Assembly: GCA_024684055.1 (NCBI GenBank)
Contig: JAIKXN010000009.1
Coordinates: 1 to 45,202 of the forward strand
Length of the DNA: 45,202 bases
Reading direction: 5' to 3'
DNA from: Lachnospiraceae bacterium
Lineage (GTDB): Bacteria; Bacillota; Clostridia; Lachnospirales; Lachnospiraceae
The first letter of the stretch is position 1; every line of letters starts with the position of its first letter. Shown piece after piece: positions 23,707-45,202 of the stretch. The position numbers and the translations under genes are program-made. The notes beneath the pieces are model-generated. The model saw only the letters and a list, made by a program, of their open reading frames with translations, ran no database searches and was not told where the DNA came from.

Positions 23707-25464
23707 TTAGATTTCATGAATCTTTCTCTGTACATATTTTGTATGAAGAACTTCATGAGCTCTGTGGCTGTTAGGCTCGCCAAAGTATTCAGCATAAAGC
23801 TTCTTAACAGATTCGTTCTCATGAGATTTTCTTCTGGGCATGTTCTCATCATAGTTGTAAAGCGCTTTAGCTCTTTCAGCTCTGATGTCTGTGAAGTTAC
23901 GAACAGAAGCAGGAACCTGAGGCTGACCGCCGCCGTTTACGCAACCGCCGGGACAAGCCATGATTTCAACGAATGTGTAATCTGCTTCGCCTGCACGGAT
24001 CTTATCCATGATAACTCTTGCGTTTGCAAGACCTGAAGCAACAGCAACCTTAACGGACATGCCTGCTACTTCGTATGTAGCTTCCTTGATACCTTCTACG
24101 CCACGTACTTCCTTGAACTCAAGAGGAGAATCATTTGTTTCGCCTGTGAGTTTCCAAACTGCTGTACGAAGAGCTGCTTCCATAACACCGCCGGTAGCAC
24201 CGAAGATAACTGCTGCACCTGTTGACTCACCCATGGGATCGTCAAATGCTTCATCCGGAAGTCTCTTGAAGTCGATACCGCATCTTTCGATAAGTCTTGC
24301 AAGTTCTCTCGTTGTCATTGTGTAATCAAGATCGGGAACACCTGCTGCTGACTGATCGGGTCTGCCGATTTCAAACTTCTTGGCTGTACAAGGCATTACT
24401 GATACGGAAACGATATCCTTGGGATCCCATCCCATCTTCTCTGCATAGTATGTCTTTAAGATACCGCCGAACATCTGCTGAGGAGACTTGCAGGATGATA
24501 AGTGATCAAGCTGATCGGGATAGTAATGCTCGCAGAACTTGATCCATCCGGGTGAACAGGATGTAATCATGGGAAGTACACCGCCGTTTGTTACTCTGCC
24601 GAGAAGCTCTGTAGCTTCTTCCATGATTGTAACGTCTGCTCCGAAATCTGTATCAAATACTTTCTCGAATCCGATACGACGAAGAGCTGCGGCCATCTTT
24701 CCTTCAACACCTGTACCCATTTCGTATCCGAAAGGCTCACCAAGTGCTGCTCTTACAGCGGGAGCTGTCTGAACAACAACGTGCTTTGAAGGATCAGCGA
24801 TAGCTTCCATGATCTTGTCAACATCTGATTTCTCGTAAATAGCACCTGTAGGACAAACTGCGATACACTGACCACAGCATACACATGCTGTTTCGCCAAG
24901 ACCCATTCCGAAAGGAGAAGCGATCTCTGTGATGAAACCTCTGTTGTTGGCACCGATAACGCCGATACCCTGTGTCTTTTCACATGCTGCAACACAACGA
25001 CGGCAGTTGATACACTTGTTGTTGTCTCTTACCATGTGAGCTGCTGAATAGTCGATTTCAAACTCATTTGTAACACCGGCATACTTGTTCTCATCATCTA
25101 CGCCGAAGTCTTTACATAATTTCTGAAGTTCACATTTGCCTGAACGAACACATGAAAGACATTTCTTGTCATGGTCAGACAAAATGAGCTGTAATGTTTT
25201 CTTTCTGTACTCAAGTACTTTGGGAGTATTGGTATAAACCTTCATTCCCTCTGTGATGGGGTATACGCAAGAAGCAACAAGTCTTGCTCCTCTTCCTTCG
25301 TCTGCCTCTACCAGACAGATACGACATGCACCGATTTCGTTGATCTCTTTTAAGTAACAAAGAGTAGGAATGTCGATGCCTGCGATCTTTGCAGCCTGAA
25401 GAATAGTGGATCCCTTGGGAGCTTCAACCGCCATACCATTTATTGTAATATTAATGGATTCCAT
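23707..25464 (-). CDS. hydA: NADH-dependent [FeFe] hydrogenase catalytic subunit HydA
   Basis: A 585-residue catalytic subunit producing or consuming hydrogen in the cytoplasm. The N-terminal [2Fe-2S] domain has C36, C47, C50 and C66. A His-Cys3 site follows (H98, C102, C105, C111), then two [4Fe-4S] sites (C151/154/157/161 and C194/197/200/204). The H-cluster domain shows L1 TSCSPGW (Cys303), L2 VMPCTAKKFE (Cys359) and L3 MACPGGCVNGGGQP (Cys504, Cys508). L1 has Ser where TSCCP is the common form. As last gene of a hydC-hydB-hydA operon it is the trimeric, probably electron-bifurcating type coupling NADH and ferredoxin to H2. The bifurcation itself is inferred. Confidence 0.96.
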   Translation of the reverse strand: MESINITINGMAVEAPKGSTILQAAKIAGIDIPTLCYLKEINEIGACRICLVEADEGRGARLVASCVYPITEGMKVYTNTPKVLEYRKKTLQLILSDHDKKCLSCVRSGKCELQKLCKDFGVDDENKYAGVTNEFEIDYSAAHMVRDNNKCINCRRCVAACEKTQGIGVIGANNRGFITEIASPFGMGLGETACVCCGQCIAVCPTGAIYEKSDVDKIMEAIADPSKHVVVQTAPAVRAALGEPFGYEMGTGVEGKMAAALRRIGFEKVFDTDFGADVTIMEEATELLGRVTNGGVLPMITSCSPGWIKFCEHYYPDQLDHLSSCKSPQQMFGGILKTYYAEKMGWDPKDIVSVSVMPCTAKKFEIGRPDQSAAGVPDLDYTMTTRELARLIERCGIDFKRLPDEAFDDPMGESTGAAVIFGATGGVMEAALRTAVWKLTGETNDSPLEFKEVRGVEGIKEATYEVAGMSVKVAVASGLANARVIMDKIRAGEADYTFVEIMACPGGCVNGGGQPQVPASVRNFTDIRAERAKALYNYDENMPRRKSHENESVKKLYAEYFGEPNSHRAHEVLHTKYVQRKIHEI

Positions 25465-25478
25465 TATCTTCCCTCCTA

Positions 25479-27293
25479 TTATTTCTTAGAAATAGCTTTG
25501 AACTTACATGTAGCCATACAAGCACCGCACTTAACACACTTGCTGGAATCGATTTCCATTGCAGGTAACTTCTTACCGGGTGCAATGTAATCTGTCTTCG
25601 AAATTGCAGAAGCGGGACACTGCTTAGCACACATTCCGCATCCGATACATTTTTCTTTGTCGATAGAGAAGCTTAAGAGATCCTTACATACGCCTGCAGG
25701 ACATCTCTTCTCAACAACGTGAGCGATGTACTCGTCTTTGAAATAACGAAGAGTAGAAAGTACAGGGTTGGGAGCTGTCTGTCCGAGACCGCAAAGTGAG
25801 TTAGCTTTGATGTAGTAGCAAAGCTCCTCTAACTTGTCGAGATCTTCGAGAGTAGCCTGTCCCTTTGTAATCTTGTCGAGCATCTCGTACATTCTCTTTG
25901 TACCGATACGACAAGGTGTACACTTACCACATGATTCGTCTACTGTAAATTCAAGGAAGAATTTAGCAATATCAACCATACAGTTATCTTCATCCATTAC
26001 GATAAGTCCGCCGGATCCCATCATGGAACCGATCGAAATAAGGTTATCGTAATCAATAGGAATATCAAAATGCTCTGCAGGGATACATCCGCCTGAAGGG
26101 CCACCGGTCTGAGCAGCTTTGAACTTCTTGCCGTTAGGGATACCGCCGCCGATATCTTCGATAACTTCACGAAGTGTTGTTCCCATGGGAACTTCTACAA
26201 GACCTGTATTGTTAATCTTTCCGCCGAGAGCGAATACCTTGGTACCCTTGCTCTTTTCTGTGCCCATTGAAGCAAACCATTCAGCGCCGTTTAAGATGAT
26301 ACGGGGAATGTTAGCGTATGTTTCAACGTTATTAAGTACAGTAGGCTTTGCAAAAAGACCTTTAACTGCAGGGAAAGGAGGACGGGGACGAGGCTCACCG
26401 CGGTTTCCTTCGATGGAAGTCATAAGAGCTGTCTCTTCACCGCAAACGAATGCACCTGCACCGAAACGAAGGTCGATATCGAAATCGAAACCTGTTCCGA
26501 AGATGTCCTTACCAAGTAATCCGTATTCTCTTGCCTGCTTGATGGCGATCTGAAGTCTCTGGATAGCGATGGGGTACTCTGCACGAACGTAGATGTAACC
26601 CTGGTTGGCACCGATTGTGTAACCTGCGATAGCCATTGCTTCAAGTACTACATGAGGATCGCCTTCAAGTACGGAACGATCCATGAATGCTCCGGGGTCA
26701 CCCTCGTCAGCATTACAGCAAACATATTTCTGATCGGCATCGGGAACGAGTGTTCTAGCGAGTTTCCATTTCTGACCTGTAGGGAAACCTGCACCGCCAC
26801 GTCCTCTTAAGCCTGCTGCAAGAAGTGTATCGATAACCTGCTCAGGTGTCATTTCGGTAAGAACCTTTGCAAGAGCCTGATAACCGTCTACAGCGATATA
26901 TTCGTCGATATTTTCAGGGTTGATTACACCACAGTTACGAAGAGCAACTCTCTTCTGCTTCTTGTAGAATCCTGTCTCAACAAGGGGAATAACAGTATCC
27001 TCTTTAACTGTCTCCTGATAAAGGAGTCTTGTAACAACTCTACCTTTGAGCAAATGCTCGGAAACTATCTCGGCAACGTCTTCTTTCTTAACCATTGAGT
27101 AGAAAGAACCTTCGGGATAGATAAGTACGATGGGTCCCAATGCGCAGAGACCGTGACAACCGGTACGTACAACTGCAACTTCTTCTGATAAGCCGTTCTT
27201 TGCAATCTCAGCTTCAAAAGCATCGATGATTGCCTGGCTTCCGGAGGAAGTACATCCTGTACCACCGCAAACTAATACGTGTGAACGATACAT
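25479..27293 (-). CDS. hydB: NuoF-like hydrogenase subunit HydB
   Basis: The 604-residue diaphorase subunit passes electrons between NADH and the hydrogenase. Residues 1-95 are a thioredoxin-like [2Fe-2S] domain (C9, C14 and a GCHGLCALGP pair). The NuoF core has the NADH/FMN motifs GRGGAGFPTGQKWK and GAGAFVCGEETALMTSIEG, and the [4Fe-4S] site ESCGKCTPCRIG. Two C-terminal [4Fe-4S] ferredoxin motifs (CIGCGMCAKQCP and CVKCGACMATC) complete it. The length and domain order are those of HydB in trimeric bifurcating hydrogenases. It lies 14 bases before hydA. Confidence 0.96.
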   Translation of the reverse strand: MYRSHVLVCGGTGCTSSGSQAIIDAFEAEIAKNGLSEEVAVVRTGCHGLCALGPIVLIYPEGSFYSMVKKEDVAEIVSEHLLKGRVVTRLLYQETVKEDTVIPLVETGFYKKQKRVALRNCGVINPENIDEYIAVDGYQALAKVLTEMTPEQVIDTLLAAGLRGRGGAGFPTGQKWKLARTLVPDADQKYVCCNADEGDPGAFMDRSVLEGDPHVVLEAMAIAGYTIGANQGYIYVRAEYPIAIQRLQIAIKQAREYGLLGKDIFGTGFDFDIDLRFGAGAFVCGEETALMTSIEGNRGEPRPRPPFPAVKGLFAKPTVLNNVETYANIPRIILNGAEWFASMGTEKSKGTKVFALGGKINNTGLVEVPMGTTLREVIEDIGGGIPNGKKFKAAQTGGPSGGCIPAEHFDIPIDYDNLISIGSMMGSGGLIVMDEDNCMVDIAKFFLEFTVDESCGKCTPCRIGTKRMYEMLDKITKGQATLEDLDKLEELCYYIKANSLCGLGQTAPNPVLSTLRYFKDEYIAHVVEKRCPAGVCKDLLSFSIDKEKCIGCGMCAKQCPASAISKTDYIAPGKKLPAMEIDSSKCVKCGACMATCKFKAISKK

Positions 27294-30005: not shown

Positions 30006-31292
30006 ATGGATCACTACAGCAACTCGGTATACTTGATCGAGAATCTATGTAAAGGATGTACAAACTGTATCAACAGATGCCCTACCCAGGCAATACGAGT
30101 AAGAAACAACAAGGCAATGATCACACCCGGTCGTTGCATTGACTGCGGCGAATGCATTCGTATCTGTCCTCATCACGCCAAAAAAGCAAGACGTGACTTT
30201 ATAGACGCAACCGACAAATACAAATATACGGTTGCCCTTCCCGCTCCCAGTCTGGCAGCTCAGTTTAACAACCTCGAGGACATCAACATTCTTCTTACCG
30301 CCATCAAAAACATTGGATTTGATGACGTTTTCGAAGTGAGCGCCGCTGCTGAGATCGTATCCGAAGAATCAAGAAAATATATCGCAGCCCACAGGGACCA
30401 GTGGCCTCTTATTTCCACTGCCTGCCCTACCGTTGTAAGACTCGTTCAGGTTCGTTTCCCGAATCTTTGTGACAAGCTTCTTCCTCTTATCACTCCCGCT
30501 GAACTCGCAGGAGATCTTGCAAGAAAAAGAGCCGTCGAAAAAACAGGCTACAAACCCGAAGAGATCGGTATATTCTTCTTATCGCCCTGCGCAAGCAAAG
30601 TAACGAGTGTAAAAAACCCCATAGGAATAGAAAAGAGCAATATAGACGAAGTACTGGCAATAAAAGATATTTATCCCGTACTTCTTTCCGTAATGCCCAA
30701 ATTCGTCGAGCAGCCCGAAGATCTGTCACAGTCGGGTAAGATCGGATTAAGCTGGGGCATTACGGGCGGTGAAGTCGGCGGTCTTCTCTCCGACTCATGC
30801 GTTGCTGCTGACGGAATCGAAAACGTAATTCACGTGCTTGAAGATCTCGAGGATGACAAATTCTCCCAGAACCTCGAGTTTATCGAACTTAATGCATGTA
30901 ACGGCGGATGCGTCGGCGGAGTAATGAACGTTGAGAACCCCTTTGCCGCAAAAGCCAAAATGCACCATTTAAGAAAATATCTTCCCGTTGCGGCCACAAG
31001 ATCCGATTCTTACGGCGAGTACAACCCCAACTGGACAACACAGGTCGAATACCAGCCCGTATTCGAGCTTGCAGATAATCTTAAAGAATCAATGGAAAAG
31101 ATGAACCGCATTGAAGAACTCACGAGAGAATTCCCGGGACTCGATTGCGGCTGCTGCGGTGCGCCCACCTGTAAGGCCCTTGCCGAAGATATCGTAAAAG
31201 GCATCGCCAAGAAACAGGACTGCATCCACGTTTTAAGAGAATACATCCATAAGCTTTCCGAAGATATTGCGGAATTAAGCGAAGGATTTTAA
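30006..31292 (+). CDS. Sensory-type [FeFe] hydrogenase-like protein (HydS-like)
   Basis: A 428-residue protein starts with two [4Fe-4S] ferredoxin motifs (C15/18/21/25 and C44/47/50/54). A reduced H-cluster domain follows, with L1 STACPT (Cys140), L2 SPCASK (Cys195) and L3 LNACNGGCVGG (Cys298, Cys302). A C-terminal cysteine motif (CGCCGAPTC, 381-389, plus C406) resembles an extra [4Fe-4S] domain. All four H-cluster ligands are present. The residue before the L1 ligand is Ala instead of the proton-relay Cys, and the L2 and L3 surroundings are altered. This matches the low-activity sensory groups (HydS). It likely reports H2 or redox state to its neighbours. Confidence 0.9.
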   Translation: MDHYSNSVYLIENLCKGCTNCINRCPTQAIRVRNNKAMITPGRCIDCGECIRICPHHAKKARRDFIDATDKYKYTVALPAPSLAAQFNNLEDINILLTAIKNIGFDDVFEVSAAAEIVSEESRKYIAAHRDQWPLISTACPTVVRLVQVRFPNLCDKLLPLITPAELAGDLARKRAVEKTGYKPEEIGIFFLSPCASKVTSVKNPIGIEKSNIDEVLAIKDIYPVLLSVMPKFVEQPEDLSQSGKIGLSWGITGGEVGGLLSDSCVAADGIENVIHVLEDLEDDKFSQNLEFIELNACNGGCVGGVMNVENPFAAKAKMHHLRKYLPVAATRSDSYGEYNPNWTTQVEYQPVFELADNLKESMEKMNRIEELTREFPGLDCGCCGAPTCKALAEDIVKGIAKKQDCIHVLREYIHKLSEDIAELSEGF

Positions 31293-37517: not shown

Positions 37518-37766
37518 ATGGAAACACGCGCAGCCGTGATTGCCATAATCGTTAAAAACAATGAATCTGCTAATGAAATAAACAAGCTTCTTCACGAGTA
37601 TCGCGATTCGATCATCGGAAGAATGGGTATCCCTTACAAGGAAAAAGGCATAAGCATTATAAGCGTTGCCATCGATGCCACACAGGATACCATCAGTTCT
37701 CTCGCAGGCAAGATCGGCCGAATCGAAGGCGTTACCGCCAAGACAGTTTATTCACCTGCAGAATAA
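37518..37766 (+). CDS. TM1266-type iron-only hydrogenase system regulator
   Basis: An 82-residue ACT-like protein (ETRAAVIAIIVKNNESANEINKLL, GRMGIPYKEKGISIISVAIDA, GRIEGVTAKTVYS), the single-domain family named after TM1266 that accompanies [FeFe] hydrogenase genes. AAGGA lies upstream. It is separated from the hyd operons by about 5 kb. The promoter carries a perfect palindrome over the -10 box. The family is thought to be regulatory, but its ligand is not known to me. Confidence 0.88.
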   Translation: METRAAVIAIIVKNNESANEINKLLHEYRDSIIGRMGIPYKEKGISIISVAIDATQDTISSLAGKIGRIEGVTAKTVYSPAE

Positions 37767-38249: not shown

Positions 38250-38999
38250 ATGATTAAATTCGCTATTTACGGCAAGGGAGGAATAGGAAAATCCACTCTC
38301 TCATCCAACTTAAGCGCCGCTTTGGCAAAAAGGGGCCTGACGGTTATGCAGATCGGATGCGATCCCAAAGCCGATTCCACATCACTTCTCTGTCCGAAGG
38401 AAAAAATAACATCCGTACTCGACCTGGTTCGTTCTTCCAAACCATTCACGCTTGAAGATATGGTAAAAGAAAGCGAATCCGGTGTTCTTTGCGTTGAAGC
38501 AGGCGGTCCCGTTCCGGGCCTCGGATGTGCAGGCAGAGGAATAATAAATGCACTCGAATCTCTTGAAAACAAGGGTGCTTACAAAGTTTATAAACCGGAT
38601 GTCGTTATCTACGATGTACTCGGCGATGTCGTATGCGGCGGTTTCACAATGCCCATGAGAAAAGGCTTTGCGGATAAAGTTTATATCGTTACTTCCGGTG
38701 AAAAAATGTCGATTTACGCAGCCGCAAACATAGCAATGGCCATTGAAAATTTCAAGAAAAGAGATTATGCGAAACTCGGTGGAATAATCCTTAACTGCAG
38801 AGGTGTCGAAAACGAGGAAGAAAATGTTGCCGAACTTGCAAAAGACTTCAACACTTCGGTACTCGCCAAAATCGAAAGAAGTCCTCTCTTCGCACAGGCA
38901 GAAGCAAAAGGAAAAACGATCGTTGATCTTTTCCCCGATAGCGATATCTGCAAAACACTTTTAGGTCTCGCTGATACAATCACTTCGGATTTCAATTAA
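38250..38999 (+). CDS. NifH-like reductase 1 of a nitrogenase-like system
   Basis: A 249-residue P-loop reductase, shorter than NifH (about 290). Walker A is GKGGIGKST (8-16), with switch residues in CDPKADST. The two cluster cysteines that bridge the dimer are Cys93 (GLGCAGRG) and Cys129 (GDVVCGGF). It should hydrolyse ATP to pass single electrons to the next two gene products. AAGGAA precedes the ATG. The family also includes BchL/ChlL, CfbC and other group IV proteins, so nitrogen fixation is not implied. A 16-bp piece of its 3' end (CTGCAAAACACTTTTA, 38948-38963) is repeated after the stop at 39006-39021. Confidence 0.95.
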
Positions 39000-39062
39000 A
39001 GAAAACTGCAAAACACTTTTAAGCCCTTAGAACACTGTCTCCTATAAAAGACAAGGAAAAAT

Positions 39063-40409
39063 ATGTTAAAAAGTCTCAATGAAAATATAAACAGAATACC
39101 CGAAGGAATTGCTATCAGTGAAATCGATTACAGCAATCCCTTCCACGACGGTCTTCATTACAATCCCCCTGCAAGAGGTGTTTGGAACATAGTTCATACA
39201 GGAATGCTTATTCCGGAGGCCCATCAGATTTACGTATGCGCGCAGGGGTGTTTACGCGGTGTAATACTGACTGCAGCCGAAATGAATCGCATGGAAAATA
39301 TGTCATGGGTCGCACTCCGGGAAAAAGACATGTGGAACGGCGAGATGGAATCAAGAGTTGTCGAAGGCTGTTCACATATCGTTGACGAAATGAAGGAACA
39401 TCCAAAGTGTATACTCGTATATTTAAGCTGCATGCATCTTTTCGAAGGATGCGATTTCAAAGTTATCGCAAAAGAACTCGAAGATAGATATCCCGACATC
39501 AACTGGGTCGACTGCTACATGACTCCGACCATGCGAAAGACTTTCGAGCCCGCGGTAATGATGAAAAAAAGTCTCTATTCTCCGGTTAAAAAATTACCGA
39601 AAAACGACAGGCTTATCGGACTTATAGGTTGCGATCGTTCTACTGACAAAACTTCAGAACTTTACACTATCATAAAAGAAGCCGGTTACAAAATGTGGGA
39701 TATCACCGACTGTAAAACATACGAAGATTACCTCTTGCTCGGCAGCGCTTCTCTTTTAATCTCATATCTTCCCGTAGTCGGATATGCTGCAAAAGACCTT
39801 ACATCAAGACTTGAAATTCCGCATCTGGGCATCGACTTAAGTTACGACGAAGAAGAAATAAAAGAAAACCTCTTCGCTTTCGCAAAAGAAATAAACTTCG
39901 ACGAAAACAGAGTAAATGAAATTATAAAAGAAAAAAAATCTGAAGCCGACGAAGCAATGAAAAAAGCTCTCGAAATCATAAAAGATACTCCGATAGCAAT
40001 CGATGCTTCAGCAACACCGAGAGCATTCGGTCTCGCGCTTCTTCTTTGCAGATACGGTTTTAATGTTACAAGAATCTATTCGGATGCATTCAGCCCGAAA
40101 GACCAAAAGGCGTTTGACGAGTTATGTAAACTCAAGCCCGATATTGAAGTTTTTCCCGTAATGGCTCCCGATATGCTTTTTGCAACAGAAGAAACCAAAG
40201 AAAAAGAAAACAGATATCTTTGCATCGGCCAGAACAGCGCATATTTTTGCCAGACAGACCGATTTGTAAATATCGTTGAAGGCGGCGGAATGTACGGCTT
40301 CGACGGCATACGCCACATGGCCGAAATGATGACCGATGCTTATCAGAATCTCAAGGATCTGAAGATAACCATATCATACAAAGGATTGGAGTGTGAAAGC
40401 TGCTTATGA
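39063..40409 (+). CDS. Nitrogenase component 1-like subunit A (operon 1)
   Basis: The 448-residue protein is a NifD/NifK-superfamily subunit. Candidate cluster cysteines are C59, C63 (VCAQGCLRG) and C123 (LSCMHLFEGC); C103, C116 and C130 are extra. The second domain has KNDRLIGLIGCDRSTDKTSE and the segment CKTYEDYLLLG also seen in its paralogue at 42625. Where NifD has the cofactor Cys (VHCYRS), this protein has SYLPVV. It ends in ECESCL, a C-terminal CxxC. It overlaps the next gene by four bases. With the NifH-like partner it would form a two-component reductase of unknown substrate. Confidence 0.88.
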   Translation: MLKSLNENINRIPEGIAISEIDYSNPFHDGLHYNPPARGVWNIVHTGMLIPEAHQIYVCAQGCLRGVILTAAEMNRMENMSWVALREKDMWNGEMESRVVEGCSHIVDEMKEHPKCILVYLSCMHLFEGCDFKVIAKELEDRYPDINWVDCYMTPTMRKTFEPAVMMKKSLYSPVKKLPKNDRLIGLIGCDRSTDKTSELYTIIKEAGYKMWDITDCKTYEDYLLLGSASLLISYLPVVGYAAKDLTSRLEIPHLGIDLSYDEEEIKENLFAFAKEINFDENRVNEIIKEKKSEADEAMKKALEIIKDTPIAIDASATPRAFGLALLLCRYGFNVTRIYSDAFSPKDQKAFDELCKLKPDIEVFPVMAPDMLFATEETKEKENRYLCIGQNSAYFCQTDRFVNIVEGGGMYGFDGIRHMAEMMTDAYQNLKDLKITISYKGLECESCL

Positions 40410-41677
40410 ATCAAACCGCAAGAATTATTTCAATTTATGCCGCTGATACTTCAGGCTTCTGCTCTGCCCTTTACGAATACGGCGGAATGGTTGTCATCCA
40501 CGATGCATCCGGCTGCAATTCAACATATACAACACACGACGAGCCCAGATGGTACGACAAAAAGTGCATGATGTTCATTTCAGGTCTCACCGAAAAAGAC
40601 GCAGTAATGGGAAACGACGACAAACTTATCGACGACCTTGTCATTGCTGCAAACAAACTTAAACCCGAATTTATCGCACTTTGTGCTTCGCCTCTTCCGG
40701 CAATGATCGGAACCGACCTTGATGCGATCGCATATGCGGTCGAGCAGGAAACAGGCATTCCCTCATTTCACGTCAAAACAAACGGAATGCAATCCTATAT
40801 CACAGGTGCCGGAAACGCTTTTGTAGAACTCGCCAAAAAGTTCATTGATGATAAGAGTTATCGAAATTCAGAAGCCGTGAATAAAACCGAAAAAGAAACT
40901 ACATTAAAATCCGAAAATAATGACTCGAATATTACCGGATCATCTGATATAAACGTAATAAATGAAACATCAACGATATCTGCCGCATCAGACAAGATAA
41001 AAGTCAACATCATCGGGGTTACGCCACTCGATTTTCCGAAAAAAGAAAACTGTGAAAGTTTAAAGAAATTTATTGAAGAATCGGGTTTTACCTTAAATGC
41101 CTGCATAGGTGTCGATACATCCCTTTCGGAAATAAAAATACTTCCCGATGCAGACGTAAATCTCATGGTTTCATCATCAGGAAAACCGCTTTGTGAATAC
41201 CTTTATGAGAATTATGATATTCCATTCGTCAAAGGTGTTCCTTACGGTATCAGGTTTGCAGAAAAGATTAAAGACCTTTTAAAAGAGTCAGCAAAAGAAA
41301 AAAGAAACATCGATGCCACATCCGATCTCAGAAAAGAAGGCAAAGTTGCAATACTCGGAGAAAGCGTACTTTCCTCTTCTCTCGCAGCAGCTTTTTTCAT
41401 CGATAACGGTATAAATGCCTGCGTGATCGAAACAGTCGGCGACGGTGACTTCGATATACTTAAACCCTTCGATTTCAGATGCGAAGATGAAGCATATCTT
41501 GAGGAAATCCTTAAAGATTTCGACGTGATCATAGGCGATCCTCTTTTCAAGCCCATATGTCACGACAAGCGTTTTGTTTCTCTTCCTCACGAAGCATTTT
41601 CCGGAAGATGTTTTACCAAAAACGCACCCAATTTCATATATGCTTCGCTTGATTCAATCGAAGAAAGCAATAAATAG
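40406..41677 (+). CDS. Nitrogenase component 1-like subunit B (operon 1)
   Basis: This 423-residue partner subunit aligns without gaps over its first 105 residues with the gene at 43920. Cluster-type cysteines are C19 (SGFCSAL), C37 (ASGCNST), C54 and C93 (ALCASPLPAM). The motif HDEPRWYDKK is shared by both copies. Residues 149-196 are a Ser/Asn/Thr-rich low-complexity insert missing from the paralogue, lying between the first and second domains. I take it as the K-like subunit from its position and motif pattern. No nifE/N/B gene accompanies it. Confidence 0.85.
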   Translation: MNQTARIISIYAADTSGFCSALYEYGGMVVIHDASGCNSTYTTHDEPRWYDKKCMMFISGLTEKDAVMGNDDKLIDDLVIAANKLKPEFIALCASPLPAMIGTDLDAIAYAVEQETGIPSFHVKTNGMQSYITGAGNAFVELAKKFIDDKSYRNSEAVNKTEKETTLKSENNDSNITGSSDINVINETSTISAASDKIKVNIIGVTPLDFPKKENCESLKKFIEESGFTLNACIGVDTSLSEIKILPDADVNLMVSSSGKPLCEYLYENYDIPFVKGVPYGIRFAEKIKDLLKESAKEKRNIDATSDLRKEGKVAILGESVLSSSLAAAFFIDNGINACVIETVGDGDFDILKPFDFRCEDEAYLEEILKDFDVIIGDPLFKPICHDKRFVSLPHEAFSGRCFTKNAPNFIYASLDSIEESNK

Positions 41678-41801
41678 TTATATCTAAAATAAGATTCAAT
41701 AAATGCATAACTGACCGGATGAATTGAAATATTTAATTCAATTGCACAGTCTGATTATAAACAATAATATTATTCAGTTTGAATTATTATCAATACAATA
41801 A

Positions 41802-41839
41802 AATGATTCATTCAAAATTCCTTCAAATTTTGAATCATT
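41802..41839. promoter_or_regulatory. Hairpin before the second nitrogenase-like operon
   Basis: ATTCAAAATT and AATTTTGAAT, with outer AATGATTC/CATT pairing, form a hairpin that ends 18 bases before the start codon. The 180-base gap is AT-rich. The hairpin may act on translation or mark the operon boundary. Confidence 0.45.
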
Positions 41840-41857
41840 ACAAAACGGAGAACACAC

Positions 41858-42625
41858 ATGATTAAAATCGCAGTTTACGGAAAAGGCGGCATAGGCAAGT
41901 CTACCGTCACTTCCAATTTGTCCGCCGCACTGGCGTACCTCGGCAAAAAAGTTATACAGATAGGTTGCGATCCCAAAGCGGATTCCACAGCCAATCTTTT
42001 ATCCGGAAATCCGGTTTTTCCCGTCATGAATTACATGCGTGATTATGACAAGGAACCCGAATCTCTCGAAGAGATTTCAAAGGTCGGATACGGCGGCGTT
42101 TTGTGCATAGAAACAGGCGGTCCTACTCCCGGACTCGGATGTGCGGGACGAGGAATCATAACTACATTTTCTTTACTTGAAGAGCTCTCTCTTTTCGAAA
42201 AATTCAAACCCGATGCAGTACTTTACGATGTACTCGGAGACGTTGTCTGCGGCGGTTTTGCAGCACCCATTCGCGAAGGTCTTGCAAGCAAGGTTCTCAT
42301 CGTAACATCAGGTGAAAAAATGGCACTTTACGCAGCGGGAAACATCAACAGTGCGGTTGAAAATTTCAAGGAAAGAAGCTACGCAAATGTCAGAGGTATC
42401 GTTTTTAACAGAAGAAATGTTTTAAACGAAGAAGAAAAAGTCCGTGAATTCGCGGCTTCAAGAAACCTTCCGATCATCGCCGATATTCCCAGAAGCGACG
42501 ACATCATCCGCTTTGAAGATGAAGGCAAAACTGTCATCGAAGGCGATCCTACAATGGAAGTCAGCAAAAGATTTCTGGATCTTGCAAAACTTCTTATCGA
42601 AGAAGATGAAAGAGAGAACAATTAA
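41858..42625 (+). CDS. NifH-like reductase 2
   Basis: A 255-residue second NifH-like protein with GKGGIGKST (8-16), CDPKADST, and cluster cysteines Cys95 (GLGCAGRG) and Cys131 (GDVVCGGF). It is clearly related to reductase 1 over its full length, but the region after residue 45 differs. CGGAGA lies upstream of the ATG, followed by the same ACACACATG that precedes reductase 1. Its last base overlaps the next start (TAATG). Each component 1-like pair therefore has its own reductase. Confidence 0.95.
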
Positions 42626-43908
42626 TGGAAAATGCATTTTACAAAACAGCGGCTGACATCGTTCGCGAGGGCTATGACAAACTCCCCGATGAACTGGTAT
42701 CATCCAAACATTTAATTTACAGTTCGCCCGCCACTCTTTCCTTTAACTCTCCCGGAGCAAAAGGCTTCGGAGTCAAAAGAGCCGGACTTGCGGTACCCGA
42801 ATCCGTAATGCTTCTTGTATCTCCCGGATGCTGCGGACGAAACACATCGCTTTTCAGAAGTTCACCCGAATACAAGGATCGCTTCTTTTTTCAGCTTCTC
42901 GACGATACGGATATCGTCACGGGAAGACACCTTATGAAGATCAACGATGCAGTAAAAGAAATGCTCGAATCACTCGACAAAAGACCTTCCGCGATCATGA
43001 TCTGTATCACCTGCGTGGACGCGCTTCTCGGCACAGACATGGAAAGGATCTGCAGAAAAGTTACCGAAACACATTCGATCCCGTGCGTGGCATGTTACAT
43101 GTACGCTTTAACCAGAGAAAAACGCCTCTCTCCCATGGCTCATGTAAGAACATCCGTGTATTCGCTCCTCGAAAAACAAAAAAGAGAAAACAGGGATATG
43201 AACATCCTCGGCTTCTTCACATCCTTAAACGACAACAGCGAAATATATACTCTTTTAAAAGATTCGGGAATAAAAAACATAAGAGAACTCGCAAGATGCC
43301 AAACCTTCGATGAATACAAAGAACTTTCAAAAGCAAACTTCAACCTTGTATTAAATCCCGAAGCAAGACATGCGGCACTCGATATGCAAAAGCGTCTTTC
43401 GATACCTTTTATCGAAATGTTAAGGCTTTATCAACCTGATAAAATACACAATCAGTACCGTCTTTTAAAAGATGCGATAGGCGCTTCATTTGATGATACC
43501 CCCTACTACGAAGAGACCAAAAAGATCATCAGTGATTTTAAAGAAAAGCACGGAAAATTGAATTTTGCTGTCGGAGAAATCTTAAACGGCGATGCGATAG
43601 AAATCGCGCTTATGCTTGTCAAAGAAGGTTTCCGTGTGGAATGCGTTTTCGCAACAGTTGGCGAACTCAATTACAGTTTCTTAAAGAAACTCGCCGAGCT
43701 TTCACCCGATACAAAAATCTATTCCAATCTCTCGCCGACAATGCTTAATTATGCAAAAGACGATGTCGACTGTTACATCGGATCCGACTGTCTCTACTAC
43801 TTTCCCGACAAGCCGGGAATCGAATGGTGCGAAGACACGGAGCCTTTCGGTTACCGCGGCGTAAACGATCTTTTTAACGCACTCGATGAAGCATTAAGTC
43901 GAAAATAA
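42625..43908 (+). CDS. Nitrogenase component 1-like subunit A (operon 2)
   Basis: The 427-residue paralogue of the 39063 product. Candidate cluster cysteines are C69, C70 (SPGCCGRN), C127 and C130 (ICITCVDALLGTD). The segment CQTFDEYKEL and the following NLVLNPEARHAALDM match the same place in the paralogue; the NifD cofactor cysteine position is Asn here. The N-terminal 55 residues differ strongly from operon 1, which suggests a different substrate or partner surface. It is translationally coupled to reductase 2. Confidence 0.87.
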   Translation: MENAFYKTAADIVREGYDKLPDELVSSKHLIYSSPATLSFNSPGAKGFGVKRAGLAVPESVMLLVSPGCCGRNTSLFRSSPEYKDRFFFQLLDDTDIVTGRHLMKINDAVKEMLESLDKRPSAIMICITCVDALLGTDMERICRKVTETHSIPCVACYMYALTREKRLSPMAHVRTSVYSLLEKQKRENRDMNILGFFTSLNDNSEIYTLLKDSGIKNIRELARCQTFDEYKELSKANFNLVLNPEARHAALDMQKRLSIPFIEMLRLYQPDKIHNQYRLLKDAIGASFDDTPYYEETKKIISDFKEKHGKLNFAVGEILNGDAIEIALMLVKEGFRVECVFATVGELNYSFLKKLAELSPDTKIYSNLSPTMLNYAKDDVDCYIGSDCLYYFPDKPGIEWCEDTEPFGYRGVNDLFNALDEALSRK

Positions 43909-43919
43909 ATGAGGTAAAA

Positions 43920-44975
43920 ATGAAAAAATTTTTAAAATATCTGTCTCCTTTCGCACCCGACCAGTCCGGTGCATGCGGAGTGTTTTATGAATTCGGCGGT
44001 CTCATCGTAATATGCGATGCAGGCGGATGTGCCGGCAATATATGCGGTTTCGACGAGCCGCGATGGTTTGACAAAAAAAGCGCCGTATTCAGCGCAGGTC
44101 TTCGCGACATGGATGCTATTATGGGACGCGATGACAAATTAATAGAAAAACTTTCAAAAGCATACGAACAGTTAGGCGGCAATTTTGCCCTTATCGTTTC
44201 AACACCCGTTCCCGCCGTTATAGCAACGGACATGAAATCTCTTGAAAGAATGGGCGAAAAGAAACTCGGAATCCCCTGCATAGCACTCGACTGCACGGGA
44301 ACACATTTCTACGATAACGGCGAAGAAAAAGCATGGCTTCGTCTCTTCGAAACTTTTGCAAAAGATGTTCTTCCCAAAGTCAAAGGAAAGACCGGCATCC
44401 TCGGCGCAACACCAATGGAAACCGGTTACAGAAACTTTTCTTCGCTTAAAGCGCTTTTGGAACAAAACGGTTATGAAAATACATTGCTTTTCTCTATGGG
44501 AACAACGCTCGATGATGTAAGAAAAGCATCCGAATGCGAAAAGAATATCGTGGTATCCCTTTCAGCATTAAAAACGGCAAAATACCTCGAAGAAAAATTC
44601 GGTATTCCCTATGAGATATGCTACCCTTTCATACCCGAAGAAATAAAGGATAAAATAACAGGCGTAAAATCAGAAAACACACTTATCATCCGCTCTCAGA
44701 TCGCAGCGAATGAAGTTAGAAAACTGATAAACGATCCTGATGCCGACTGCTTCACATTTTTTGGTTTTGAAAAATCGCTTTCATCCTCAAATGACAAAGC
44801 ATTAACCGGCGAGGACGATCTTACCGAATTGTTAAAAGCAAAAAAATACGACTGTATCATAGCGGATTCAGAAATTGAAAAACTTACACGCGACGCCGGA
44901 TTCGAAGGTGAATTCATCGATTATCCGGAATTCGCAATTTCAGGCCGCGGTTTCGATTTCACACAGTTTATTTAA
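43920..44975 (+). CDS. Nitrogenase component 1-like subunit B (operon 2)
   Basis: A 351-residue paralogue of the 40406 product, shorter because it lacks the Ser/Asn-rich insert. Cysteines C19 (SGACGVF), C32, C37 and C42 (DAGGCAGNIC) are present. The position matching Cys93 of the operon 1 protein is Val93 (LIVSTPVPAV), so one likely cluster ligand is missing or replaced by C32 or C42. HDEPRW of the other copy appears as FDEPRWFDKK. It starts 11 bases after subunit A, with GAGG. Its 3' end is the source of a tandem duplication before hypF. Confidence 0.86.
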   Translation: MKKFLKYLSPFAPDQSGACGVFYEFGGLIVICDAGGCAGNICGFDEPRWFDKKSAVFSAGLRDMDAIMGRDDKLIEKLSKAYEQLGGNFALIVSTPVPAVIATDMKSLERMGEKKLGIPCIALDCTGTHFYDNGEEKAWLRLFETFAKDVLPKVKGKTGILGATPMETGYRNFSSLKALLEQNGYENTLLFSMGTTLDDVRKASECEKNIVVSLSALKTAKYLEEKFGIPYEICYPFIPEEIKDKITGVKSENTLIIRSQIAANEVRKLINDPDADCFTFFGFEKSLSSSNDKALTGEDDLTELLKAKKYDCIIADSEIEKLTRDAGFEGEFIDYPEFAISGRGFDFTQFI

Positions 44976-45119
44976 ACAGCGGACAATTTTTAACACTTGT
45001 GGTATTCGCATATATGGAATCGGCCAAGGCTTTGGATTTGATTTCACAAAGTATTTTTAATCCGGAGGACAATTTTGAATACTTGCGTTATTCGCGTATA
45101 CGGAATCGTTCAGGGTGTC
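44949..45119 (+). repeat. 86-bp tandem duplication across the gene junction before hypF
   Basis: Copy one (from 44949) holds the end of the subunit B gene (GFDFTQFI), a ribosome site and a decayed hypF start (NTCGIRIYGIGQGF). Copy two (from 45035) repeats GFDFTKYF-stop, CGGAGGACAATTTTG and the intact hypF start (NTCVIRVYGIVQGVGF). The offset is 85-86 bases. Copy one has TTT where hypF has its TTG start. Confidence 0.8.
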
Positions 45120-45202
45120 GGTTTTCGTCCTTTTGTAAGCAGAACCTGTCTTGAAAACAACATAAAAGGCAGCGTTTCAAACAAAGGCTCCTATGTGGAA
45201 AT
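45075..45202 (+). CDS. hypF: HypF, N-terminal part (cut by the window end)
   Basis: The frame begins at a TTG with GGAGG seven bases upstream and stays open to the window end (42 codons). It reads NTCVIRVYGIVQGVGFRPFV, the acylphosphatase domain that opens HypF. In [NiFe] hydrogenases HypF transfers a carbamoyl group to HypE, the first step to the cyanide ligands. No [NiFe] hydrogenase gene is in the window. A free-standing acylphosphatase (about 90 residues) cannot be excluded from this length, but GFRPFV favours HypF. Confidence 0.75.
   Translation, partial: MNTCVIRVYGIVQGVGFRPFVSRTCLENNIKGSVSNKGSYVE

Follow-up and report, generated by a model that had tools for sequence, protein, structure and literature searches.

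Two nitrogenase-like reductase sets joined to hyp genes suggest a HydG-free route of H-cluster maturation in anaerobic bacteria

At the level of cofactor assembly, the H-cluster of [FeFe]-hydrogenases has been assigned to a small set of specialized maturases. According to passages of a paper of May 2026, the [2Fe] subsite needs a dedicated HydE, HydF and HydG pathway, in which HydG makes CO and CN from tyrosine together with an Fe(CO)2(CN) synthon, and HydE takes the cysteine-bound Fe(CO)2(CN) from HydG to form a diiron unit that is finished on HydF (PMC13360658). Sections of another source state that an Fe(CN)2CO group is made and inserted by HypCDEF, and that addition of CO or CN doubled the activation of HydA by HydF that had been matured without HydG (PMC9431212). 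Here we describe a locus of a Lachnospiraceae bacterium (GenBank assembly GCA_024684055.1, contig JAIKXN010000009.1, positions 1 to 45,202; this whole stretch of 45,202 nucleotides is called the window) that holds two consecutive nitrogenase-like gene sets, H1-A1-B1 and H2-A2-B2, each encoding a NifH-like reductase (H) and two component-1-like subunits (A and B), and that runs directly into hyp genes. The duplicated set and HydG exclude each other among the genomes searched. We propose, with a probability of about 0.8, that HypCDEF and the two nitrogenase-like reductases make HydG's Fe-CO-CN synthon for HydE and HydF in an alternative maturation of the H-cluster. No description of a cluster of this type, combining nitrogenase-like genes, Hyp proteins and loss of HydG, was found in the open-licence literature.

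Compared with the HydEFG pathway, the system shares the client HydA and retains HydE and HydF with a TM1266 regulator alongside; it differs in having nitrogenase-like and Hyp proteins instead of HydG, the tyrosine lyase that provides CO, CN and the Fe synthon. Compared with the HypCDEF pathway of [NiFe]-hydrogenases, it shares HypF, HypE, HypC and HypD over curated cut-offs and with their motif cysteines kept, and differs in being linked to six nitrogenase-like proteins and to HydE and HydF, most carriers having no match to a [NiFe]-hydrogenase. The six nitrogenase-like genes are the following:

38250..38999, plus strand: H1, NifH-like ATP-dependent reductase of set 1 (Fer4_NifH PF00142, 284 bits)
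39063..40409, plus strand: A1, component-1-like subunit of set 1 (Oxidored_nitro PF00148, 71 bits; predicted nitrogenase fold)
40406..41677, plus strand: B1, component-1-like partner subunit of set 1 (PF00148, 119 bits)
41858..42625, plus strand: H2, NifH-like ATP-dependent reductase of set 2 (PF00142, 288 bits)
42625..43908, plus strand: A2, component-1-like subunit of set 2 (PF00148, 104 bits; predicted nitrogenase fold)
43920..44975, plus strand: B2, short component-1-like partner subunit of set 2 (PF00148, 80 bits)

The original prediction, made from the sequence of the window, had recognized two H-A-B sets in the interval 38250-44975, and this is borne out by six intact open reading frames in the order H1-A1-B1-H2-A2-B2, all above Pfam gathering cut-offs, with operon-like overlaps of 4 bases between the start of B1 and the stop of A1 and of 1 base between H2 and A2. 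H1 and H2 are 53% identical, and the A1/A2 and B1/B2 pairs share approximately 20-33% identity in local alignments of related loci against the window. Both H proteins keep two cysteines (C93 and C129 of H1), which we take to hold the [4Fe-4S] cluster and which had been noted for both reductases; neither varies among 13 aligned family members. A NifH-type ATPase with cluster cysteines and subunits of component-1 fold place the system in the nitrogenase-like two-component superfamily. Within it, none of the six proteins reached the NCBIfam cut-offs of the NifH, CfbC, BchL/X, NifD/K/E/N, BchN/B and CfbD models; for CfbC the scores were 304 and 284 bits (cut-off 402), and for CfbD 26 and 19 bits (cut-off 268). 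As had also been stated, no nifB, nifE, nifN or tetrapyrrole genes occur among the open reading frames read beside the six-gene cluster.

On its two flanks, the cluster is bordered by genes of hydrogenase systems:

37518..37766, plus strand: TM1266-family putative regulator of the [FeFe]-hydrogenase system, 82 amino acids (NCBIfam TIGR03959, 114 bits, cut-off 60.8)
45075..45202, plus strand: start of hypF (carbamoyltransferase), interrupted by the contig end (identical overlap with contig C34 of the same genome)

The hypF frame opens at about 45075, after B2, and the contig stops inside the gene. Contig C34 starts with the same 141 bases as positions 45062-45202 of the window and holds the entire hypF followed by hypC, hypD and hypE; HypC was recognized as a frame, and the equivalog cut-offs were passed by HypF (735 bits, cut-off 466), HypD (396, cut-off 193) and HypE (442, cut-off 252). 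Because the window ends inside hypF, the original prediction could not see this context, and its description of the two operons as being without cofactor-assembly genes turned out to be misleading, given hypF at the contig end, the TM1266 regulator and a HydA gene upstream.

This arrangement is conserved well beyond the genome of origin. A search for A1 in 99 genomes (the own genome and its relatives) gave matches in 20, with both A-B sets in 14 same-genus genomes and in G055, a distant single set only in the same-genus G018 and G030 and in G034 and G085, and a weak match in G059. In addition, the contigs of named genomes were scanned with the A2 alignment; of 395 candidate stretches 341 were confirmed, and the 80 best of these loci were kept. 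The best 80 loci include Lachnospiraceae, Eubacterium and Ruminococcus (R. albus KH2T6 and AR67, R. bicirculans 80/3) as well as Lentisphaeria, Victivallales, one Synergistaceae metagenome-assembled genome and Clostridiaceae BL-3, and their common order is TM1266-HydF-HydE-H1-A1-B1-H2-A2-B2-HypF-HypC-HypD-HypE. In 48 loci the sequence extends 8.5 kb or more upstream of A2; all of these have A1, B1 and H2, and 45 have H1. TM1266 is found in 43 of the 48, HydE in 35 and HydF in 28; 37 contain HydE or HydF, and every one of the 48 contains TM1266, HydE or HydF. Downstream, 54 loci reach 7 kb or more beyond A2; all 54 contain HypF and HypD, and B2 appears in 52, HypE in 51 and HypC in 47. HypF follows B2 or A2 in all 73 of the best 80 loci that show HypF, and TM1266 is matched in 55 of the 80, many of which are truncated. 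The two sets are conserved together in related loci. Curated cut-offs were passed by every protein tested, namely five HydE (four loci and the own genome), three HydF (R. bicirculans, R. albus and G055), three each of HypF, HypD and HypE, and one HypC (G020, subfamily cut-off). In the window genus, HydE and HydF lie elsewhere in the genome, outside the cluster locus.

Some loci depart from the common order. In L190 and in G055 (L047), H1-A1-B1 stands after TM1266 and downstream of HypE, in G011 (L048) and G022 (L049) A1-B1 comes directly after HypE and the fetched loci hold a single H, and in L184 hypC-hypD is placed between the two sets. H1 and A1 are fused in one frame in BL-3 (L188, 5982-8102, 706 amino acids) and probably also in L185 (6006-8102, 698 amino acids), and in L062 (G015, 389-1416), close to the contig end, B2 falls into two frames that overlap, which is probably a frameshift or an assembly error. 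Loss of H1, B1, H2 or B2 in several Lentisphaeria loci, where these genes were unlisted, was considered and rejected: since overlong overlapping frames were found there (13 loci, the two H1-A1 fusions among them), most of these gaps may be artefacts of the overlap filter.

The relationship between the cluster and HydG is manifested most clearly within the genus. The cluster is carried by 14 of the 31 same-genus genomes and HydG over its cut-off by 15 others; none has both, and two (69% and 81% complete) have neither. HydG is therefore present in 15 of the 17 genomes without the cluster (Fisher p 5e-7, relatedness ignored). The incomplete genomes G028 and G012 show a HydA-domain match without HydG and without the cluster. 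Genome-wide searches also took in 51 further carriers, which are the 50 genomes reached through the best 80 loci (50 of the 69 loci outside the genus genomes were taken) plus G055, and HydG over its cut-off was found in 0 of the 65 cluster genomes. Hidden HydG homologues were discarded as a candidate, the strongest sub-threshold HydG matches being ThiH in six of six tested. In turn, the HydA domain (PF02906) is present in 30 of the 31 same-genus genomes, including all 14 with the cluster, and in 50 of the 51 further carriers, that is, in 64 of 65 cluster genomes. HydF over its cut-off was found in 14 of 14 and 49 of 51, respectively, 63 of 65 overall, in a search that covered 80 of 82 genomes. 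HydE was assessed by its co-location with the cluster (HydE or HydF in the 37 of 48 loci mentioned above). Of the components of [FeFe]-hydrogenase maturation, HydA is accordingly present, and HydE and HydF are present and co-located in the loci counted above.

HypCDEF is known for its service to [NiFe]-hydrogenase, and it could be argued that it also serves an ordinary enzyme of that class here, its position beside the nitrogenase-like genes being incidental. This explanation is refuted for most carriers, because a match to the [NiFe]-hydrogenase large subunit (PF00374) is absent from all 31 same-genus genomes and from 45 of the 51 further carriers. Moreover, HypD is confined, within the genus, to genomes that carry the cluster: it is found in 13 of these 14 (in the exception, G015, the contig ends inside the cluster) and in none of the 17 others. 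Gene order is also kept across phyla, no other gene family appearing within the cluster span in more than 7 of the best 80 loci, as judged from plus-strand frames of at least 80 amino acids; hypA and hypB were not searched genome-wide. Partial PF00374 matches exist in six of the 51 further carriers (G116, G121, G132, G133, G137 and G138), in frames of 357-366 amino acids that are perhaps Ech-like, and the Hyp proteins of these six could for that reason serve two clients. As a general account, an incidental link to [NiFe]-hydrogenase is scarcely credible.

The conserved Hyp and Hyd neighbours together with the absence of HydG therefore point to a cofactor-assembly machine for [FeFe]-hydrogenase. 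This does not favour the stand-alone substrate-reducing enzyme that had been suggested at first, as the six genes adjoin HypFCDE, joined in many relatives by HydE, HydF and TM1266, and the carriers are without HydG. A related explanation would see in the six proteins a new end enzyme, either a nitrogenase-like reductase or a hydrogenase, with its own Hyp-made Fe-CN-CO unit, HydE, HydF and TM1266 being co-regulated neighbours and HydG having been lost since another H-cluster route operates elsewhere in the genome. The component-1-like pairs with conserved interface cysteines and the tight linkage of Hyp to the nitrogenase-like genes speak in its favour. However, it needs a further HydG substitute in every carrier, while among the families searched it is the cluster that tracks HydG loss in the genus and 51 other carriers also are without HydG, and the presence of two component-1 pairs next to maturases suggests an assembly function more than a catalytic one. 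For these reasons we consider an end enzyme improbable.

The presumed client of the cluster is encoded upstream in the window:

23707..25464, minus strand: HydA, group A6 NADH-dependent [FeFe]-hydrogenase catalytic subunit (NF040763, 887 bits, cut-off 765)

It contains TSCSPGW, SPQQM and EIMACPGGCVNGGGQP, which we take by their role to be the H-cluster motifs. These motifs are common to 12 cluster genomes and to 8 of 11 HydG genomes; G136, a cluster genome, has the variant TAKSPQQM, and the copy aligned from the HydG genomes G001, G006 and G027 belongs to a separate HydA type whose motifs differ. A changed HydA in the carriers was looked for and rejected, no column separating the 12 cluster sequences from the 11 HydG sequences by the criterion used. 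With HydA apparently unchanged, the carriers seem to arrive at the same H-cluster by another route. A HydE signature distinguishing cluster from HydG genomes at positions 98 and 277 of the own HydE was likewise rejected. Position 277 is D in 58 of 61 cluster-labelled sequences versus A in all seven on the HydG side; one cluster-labelled sequence (L112 from G028) actually comes from a genome without the cluster, and 15 further HydE regions from HydG genomes gave the D motif in 3, A in 2 and an unmatched pattern in 10. The solved HydE chains, presumably those of Thermotoga maritima, a HydG carrier, also have D at position 277.

At the residue level, A1 shows C63, C123, C151 and C447 in 16 of 16 aligned rows and C59 and C444 in 15 of 16; A2 keeps C69, C70, C127, C130 and C225, and B2 keeps C32, C37 and C42, all in 16 of 16. 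Cysteines of A1 and A2 fall at two of the three P-cluster positions of NifD, C98 and C164 of Rhizobium etli NifD, which presumably correspond to the P-cluster ligands C88 and C154 of Azotobacter vinelandii; other cysteines are specific to the family. In the column of C283 of R. etli NifD, which we take as the equivalent of C275, the ligand of the iron-molybdenum cofactor (FeMo-co), cysteine occurs in only 3 of 83 aligned subunits. Predicted models of A1 and A2 (mean predicted local distance difference test score, pLDDT, 78 and 83) match subunits of nitrogenase, NifEN, methylthio-alkane reductase (MAR) and dark-operative protochlorophyllide oxidoreductase (DPOR), with template modelling (TM) scores of 0.5-0.7 by query length and 11-19% identity among the 50 matches listed for each. 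On the Hyp side, HypE ends in PRIC in 56 of 56 proteins that end inside the locus, HypC carries MC in 63 of 64 and HypD both cysteine motifs in 64 of 65, residues that we assume to be the functional ones (Cys2 of HypC, the C-terminal cysteine of HypE and the HypD motifs). Judged from these conserved residues, the Hyp and nitrogenase-like machinery looks functional.

Trees were calculated from 16 rows per component-1 subunit plus references. In the unrooted tree, a split with support 100 divides A1, A2 and the A subunits of importer-linked single sets (see below) from all other sequences. B1, B2 and the importer-linked B make up one clade, also with support 100, and these A and B groups lie apart from R. 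etli NifDKEN, from the NflDK of contig C43 of the own genome and from BchN/B/Y/Z. Since the A1, A2 and importer-linked A subunits group together, and likewise the B subunits, the two sets probably arose by duplication of one H-A-B unit. In the H tree, the long branches of BchL and BchX fall inside, which is probably an artefact. The phylogeny proposed as a check thus locates the proteins outside the NifHDKEN, NflHDK and BchLNB/XYZ clades, CfbCD and characterized MAR having been outside the tree sample, and this, along with the unreached curated cut-offs, upholds the view of an uncharacterized nitrogenase-like system. The opposite possibility, that the cluster is a member of a characterized family (nitrogenase, MAR, DPOR and chlorophyllide oxidoreductase (COR), or CfbCD), can appeal to the common fold and homology. 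It is contradicted by the curated cut-offs, by the separate clades within that tree sample, by the absence of the FeMo-co cysteine and by the existence of a different cluster for the genome's own NflHDK on contig C43, and its likelihood is negligible. The DPOR/COR enzymes (BchLNB/XYZ) do not group with the cluster in the trees, CfbCD has a homomeric component 1, unlike the separate A and B subunits found here, and the own NflHDK, with nifB-like and NifX-like genes beside it, branches apart.

A further likeness is to NifH-NifEN and NifH-NifDK, in which one NifH serves both NifEN and NifDK. The cluster shares with them an ATP-dependent reductase and component-1-like pairs, two pairs in one system, and the lone H in the G011 and G022 loci adds to the likeness. 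It differs in lacking the FeMo-co cysteine ligand, in its separate clades, in having no nifB, nifE or nifN in the cluster and in its presumed product, an Fe-CO-CN unit instead of FeMo-co.

With regard to the chemistry, replacement of HydG by HypCDEF would supply cyanide, but each iron would then have to lose one CN and gain one CO, and reducing power would be required. NifH-type proteins can reduce CO2 to CO, and cyanide is a substrate reduced by nitrogenase; two NifH-driven reductases fit the need for CO, CN removal and reducing power. We infer a sequence in which HypF and HypE would produce cyanide from carbamoyl phosphate and HypC-HypD would assemble an Fe(CN)2CO-type unit. The genes of H2-A2-B2 stand immediately before hypF in every locus that shows hypF, and this complex would receive or remodel the unit through ATP-dependent electron transfer. 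The H1-A1-B1 complex, whose genes usually adjoin hydE or TM1266, would then finish it, probably by adding a second CO (for example from CO2) and, alternatively or additionally, by taking away one CN and reducing the iron. This would yield an Fe(CO)2(CN) synthon equivalent to complex B of HydG, which HydE would dimerize, HydF carry and HydA receive. Gene neighbourhood is what suggests the order, with set 2 acting on the Hyp product and set 1 handing a complex-B-like unit to HydE.

Another scheme of H-cluster maturation would have HypCDEF as the only replacement of HydG, supplying CN and CO, and the nitrogenase-like sets in a different step, such as the reduction of iron, sulfur or a donor of the bridging ligand. 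It finds backing in the passages of PMC9431212 quoted above, both in the synthesis and insertion of Fe(CN)2CO by HypCDEF and in the doubled HydA activation by HydG-free HydF upon CO or CN addition. Nevertheless, Hyp delivers CN and CO in a ratio of 2:1 and HydE requires the inverse, and the maintenance of duplicated, energy-consuming reductases in the operon suggests a central redox step, which makes this scheme unlikely.

Several observations weigh against the proposed HydG-free maturation by HypCDEF and both reductase sets. A ligand change has to be postulated, because HydE takes Fe(CO)2(CN) while Hyp makes Fe(CN)2CO. The third P-cluster cysteine column of NifD is not kept in A1 and A2, and B1 and B2 have proline at one NifK cysteine position, another being kept. 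Neither HydE nor HydF lies in 11 of the 48 loci with enough upstream sequence, the window genus included. Regarding genome distribution, the same-genus genomes are related to each other, so the Fisher p overstates their independence, and the six carriers with partial [NiFe] matches have already been mentioned. G135 has no PF02906 match, G008 and G026 have only PF02906 fragments at contig ends and divergent copies, G104 has a fragment only, and G124 and G147 are without HydF over its cut-off; incompleteness may explain all these cases. The HydE residues that had seemed to distinguish the two groups were not upheld. Finally, G034, which carries a distant single H-A-B set only, is also without a HydG match.

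Single H-A-B sets have a different setting. In the clostridial loci L050-L053 and on a Treponema saccharophilum plasmid (L274), they stand beside an ATP-binding cassette (ABC) importer of siderophore/B12/heme type. They are the closest relatives of the window sets in the trees, and differ from the window's duplicated set in having one set only and the importer. HydG accompanies the distant single sets in three genomes (G018, G030 and G085) but is not matched in G034, and a genome search detected no HypD in G018 and G030. The link to Hyp and to HydG loss thus belongs to the duplicated set, because single sets coexist with HydG and, in G018 and G030, are without HypD.

Other genes of the window and of the own genome complete the picture. 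Next to HydA, the gene at 25479-27293 is NuoF-like with a match below the cut-off, and smaller genes up to 28779 are HydC-like as judged by eye. At 30006-31292, a HydA-like protein of 428 amino acids (PF02906, 110 bits) has ferredoxin-type cysteines and altered H-cluster motifs and is perhaps a sensory [FeFe]-hydrogenase; a PHP-domain-like gene, named by eye, comes after it. The separate NflHDK/MAR-like cluster of the own genome (L012, contig C43, 12000-30000) adjoins an ABC importer. Its genes, mostly named by eye, are a radical S-adenosylmethionine (SAM) nifB-like gene with a match below its cut-off, two NifX-like genes, NifH, a CysK-like gene, D and K, followed by CysK, serine acetyltransferase and Rrf2-type genes, and it is perhaps devoted to sulfur-compound reduction.

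Taken further, the proposed route leads to a tentative generalization, to which we assign slightly less than even odds, that many anaerobes build the [FeFe] site by nitrogenase-type chemistry, a Hyp-derived cyanide-iron unit being converted to Fe(CO)2(CN) through ATP-driven reduction by NifH-like and component-1-like proteins (for example of CO2 to CO). If true, this would represent a further use of the nitrogenase scaffold, now in organometallic cofactor assembly, and would merge the [NiFe], [FeFe] and nitrogenase machineries. What would be new is that two known machineries, unrelated to the radical-SAM enzyme, together take its place; this could alternatively be counted as a variant of H-cluster maturation. 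For biotechnology, a HydG-free route would offer a different enzyme set for hydrogenase production. It would likewise explain how [FeFe]-hydrogenase is matured in Ruminococcus albus and its kin without HydG, and in gut and rumen anaerobes it would give a function to an orphan nitrogenase-like clade and bear on the source of the CO ligands.

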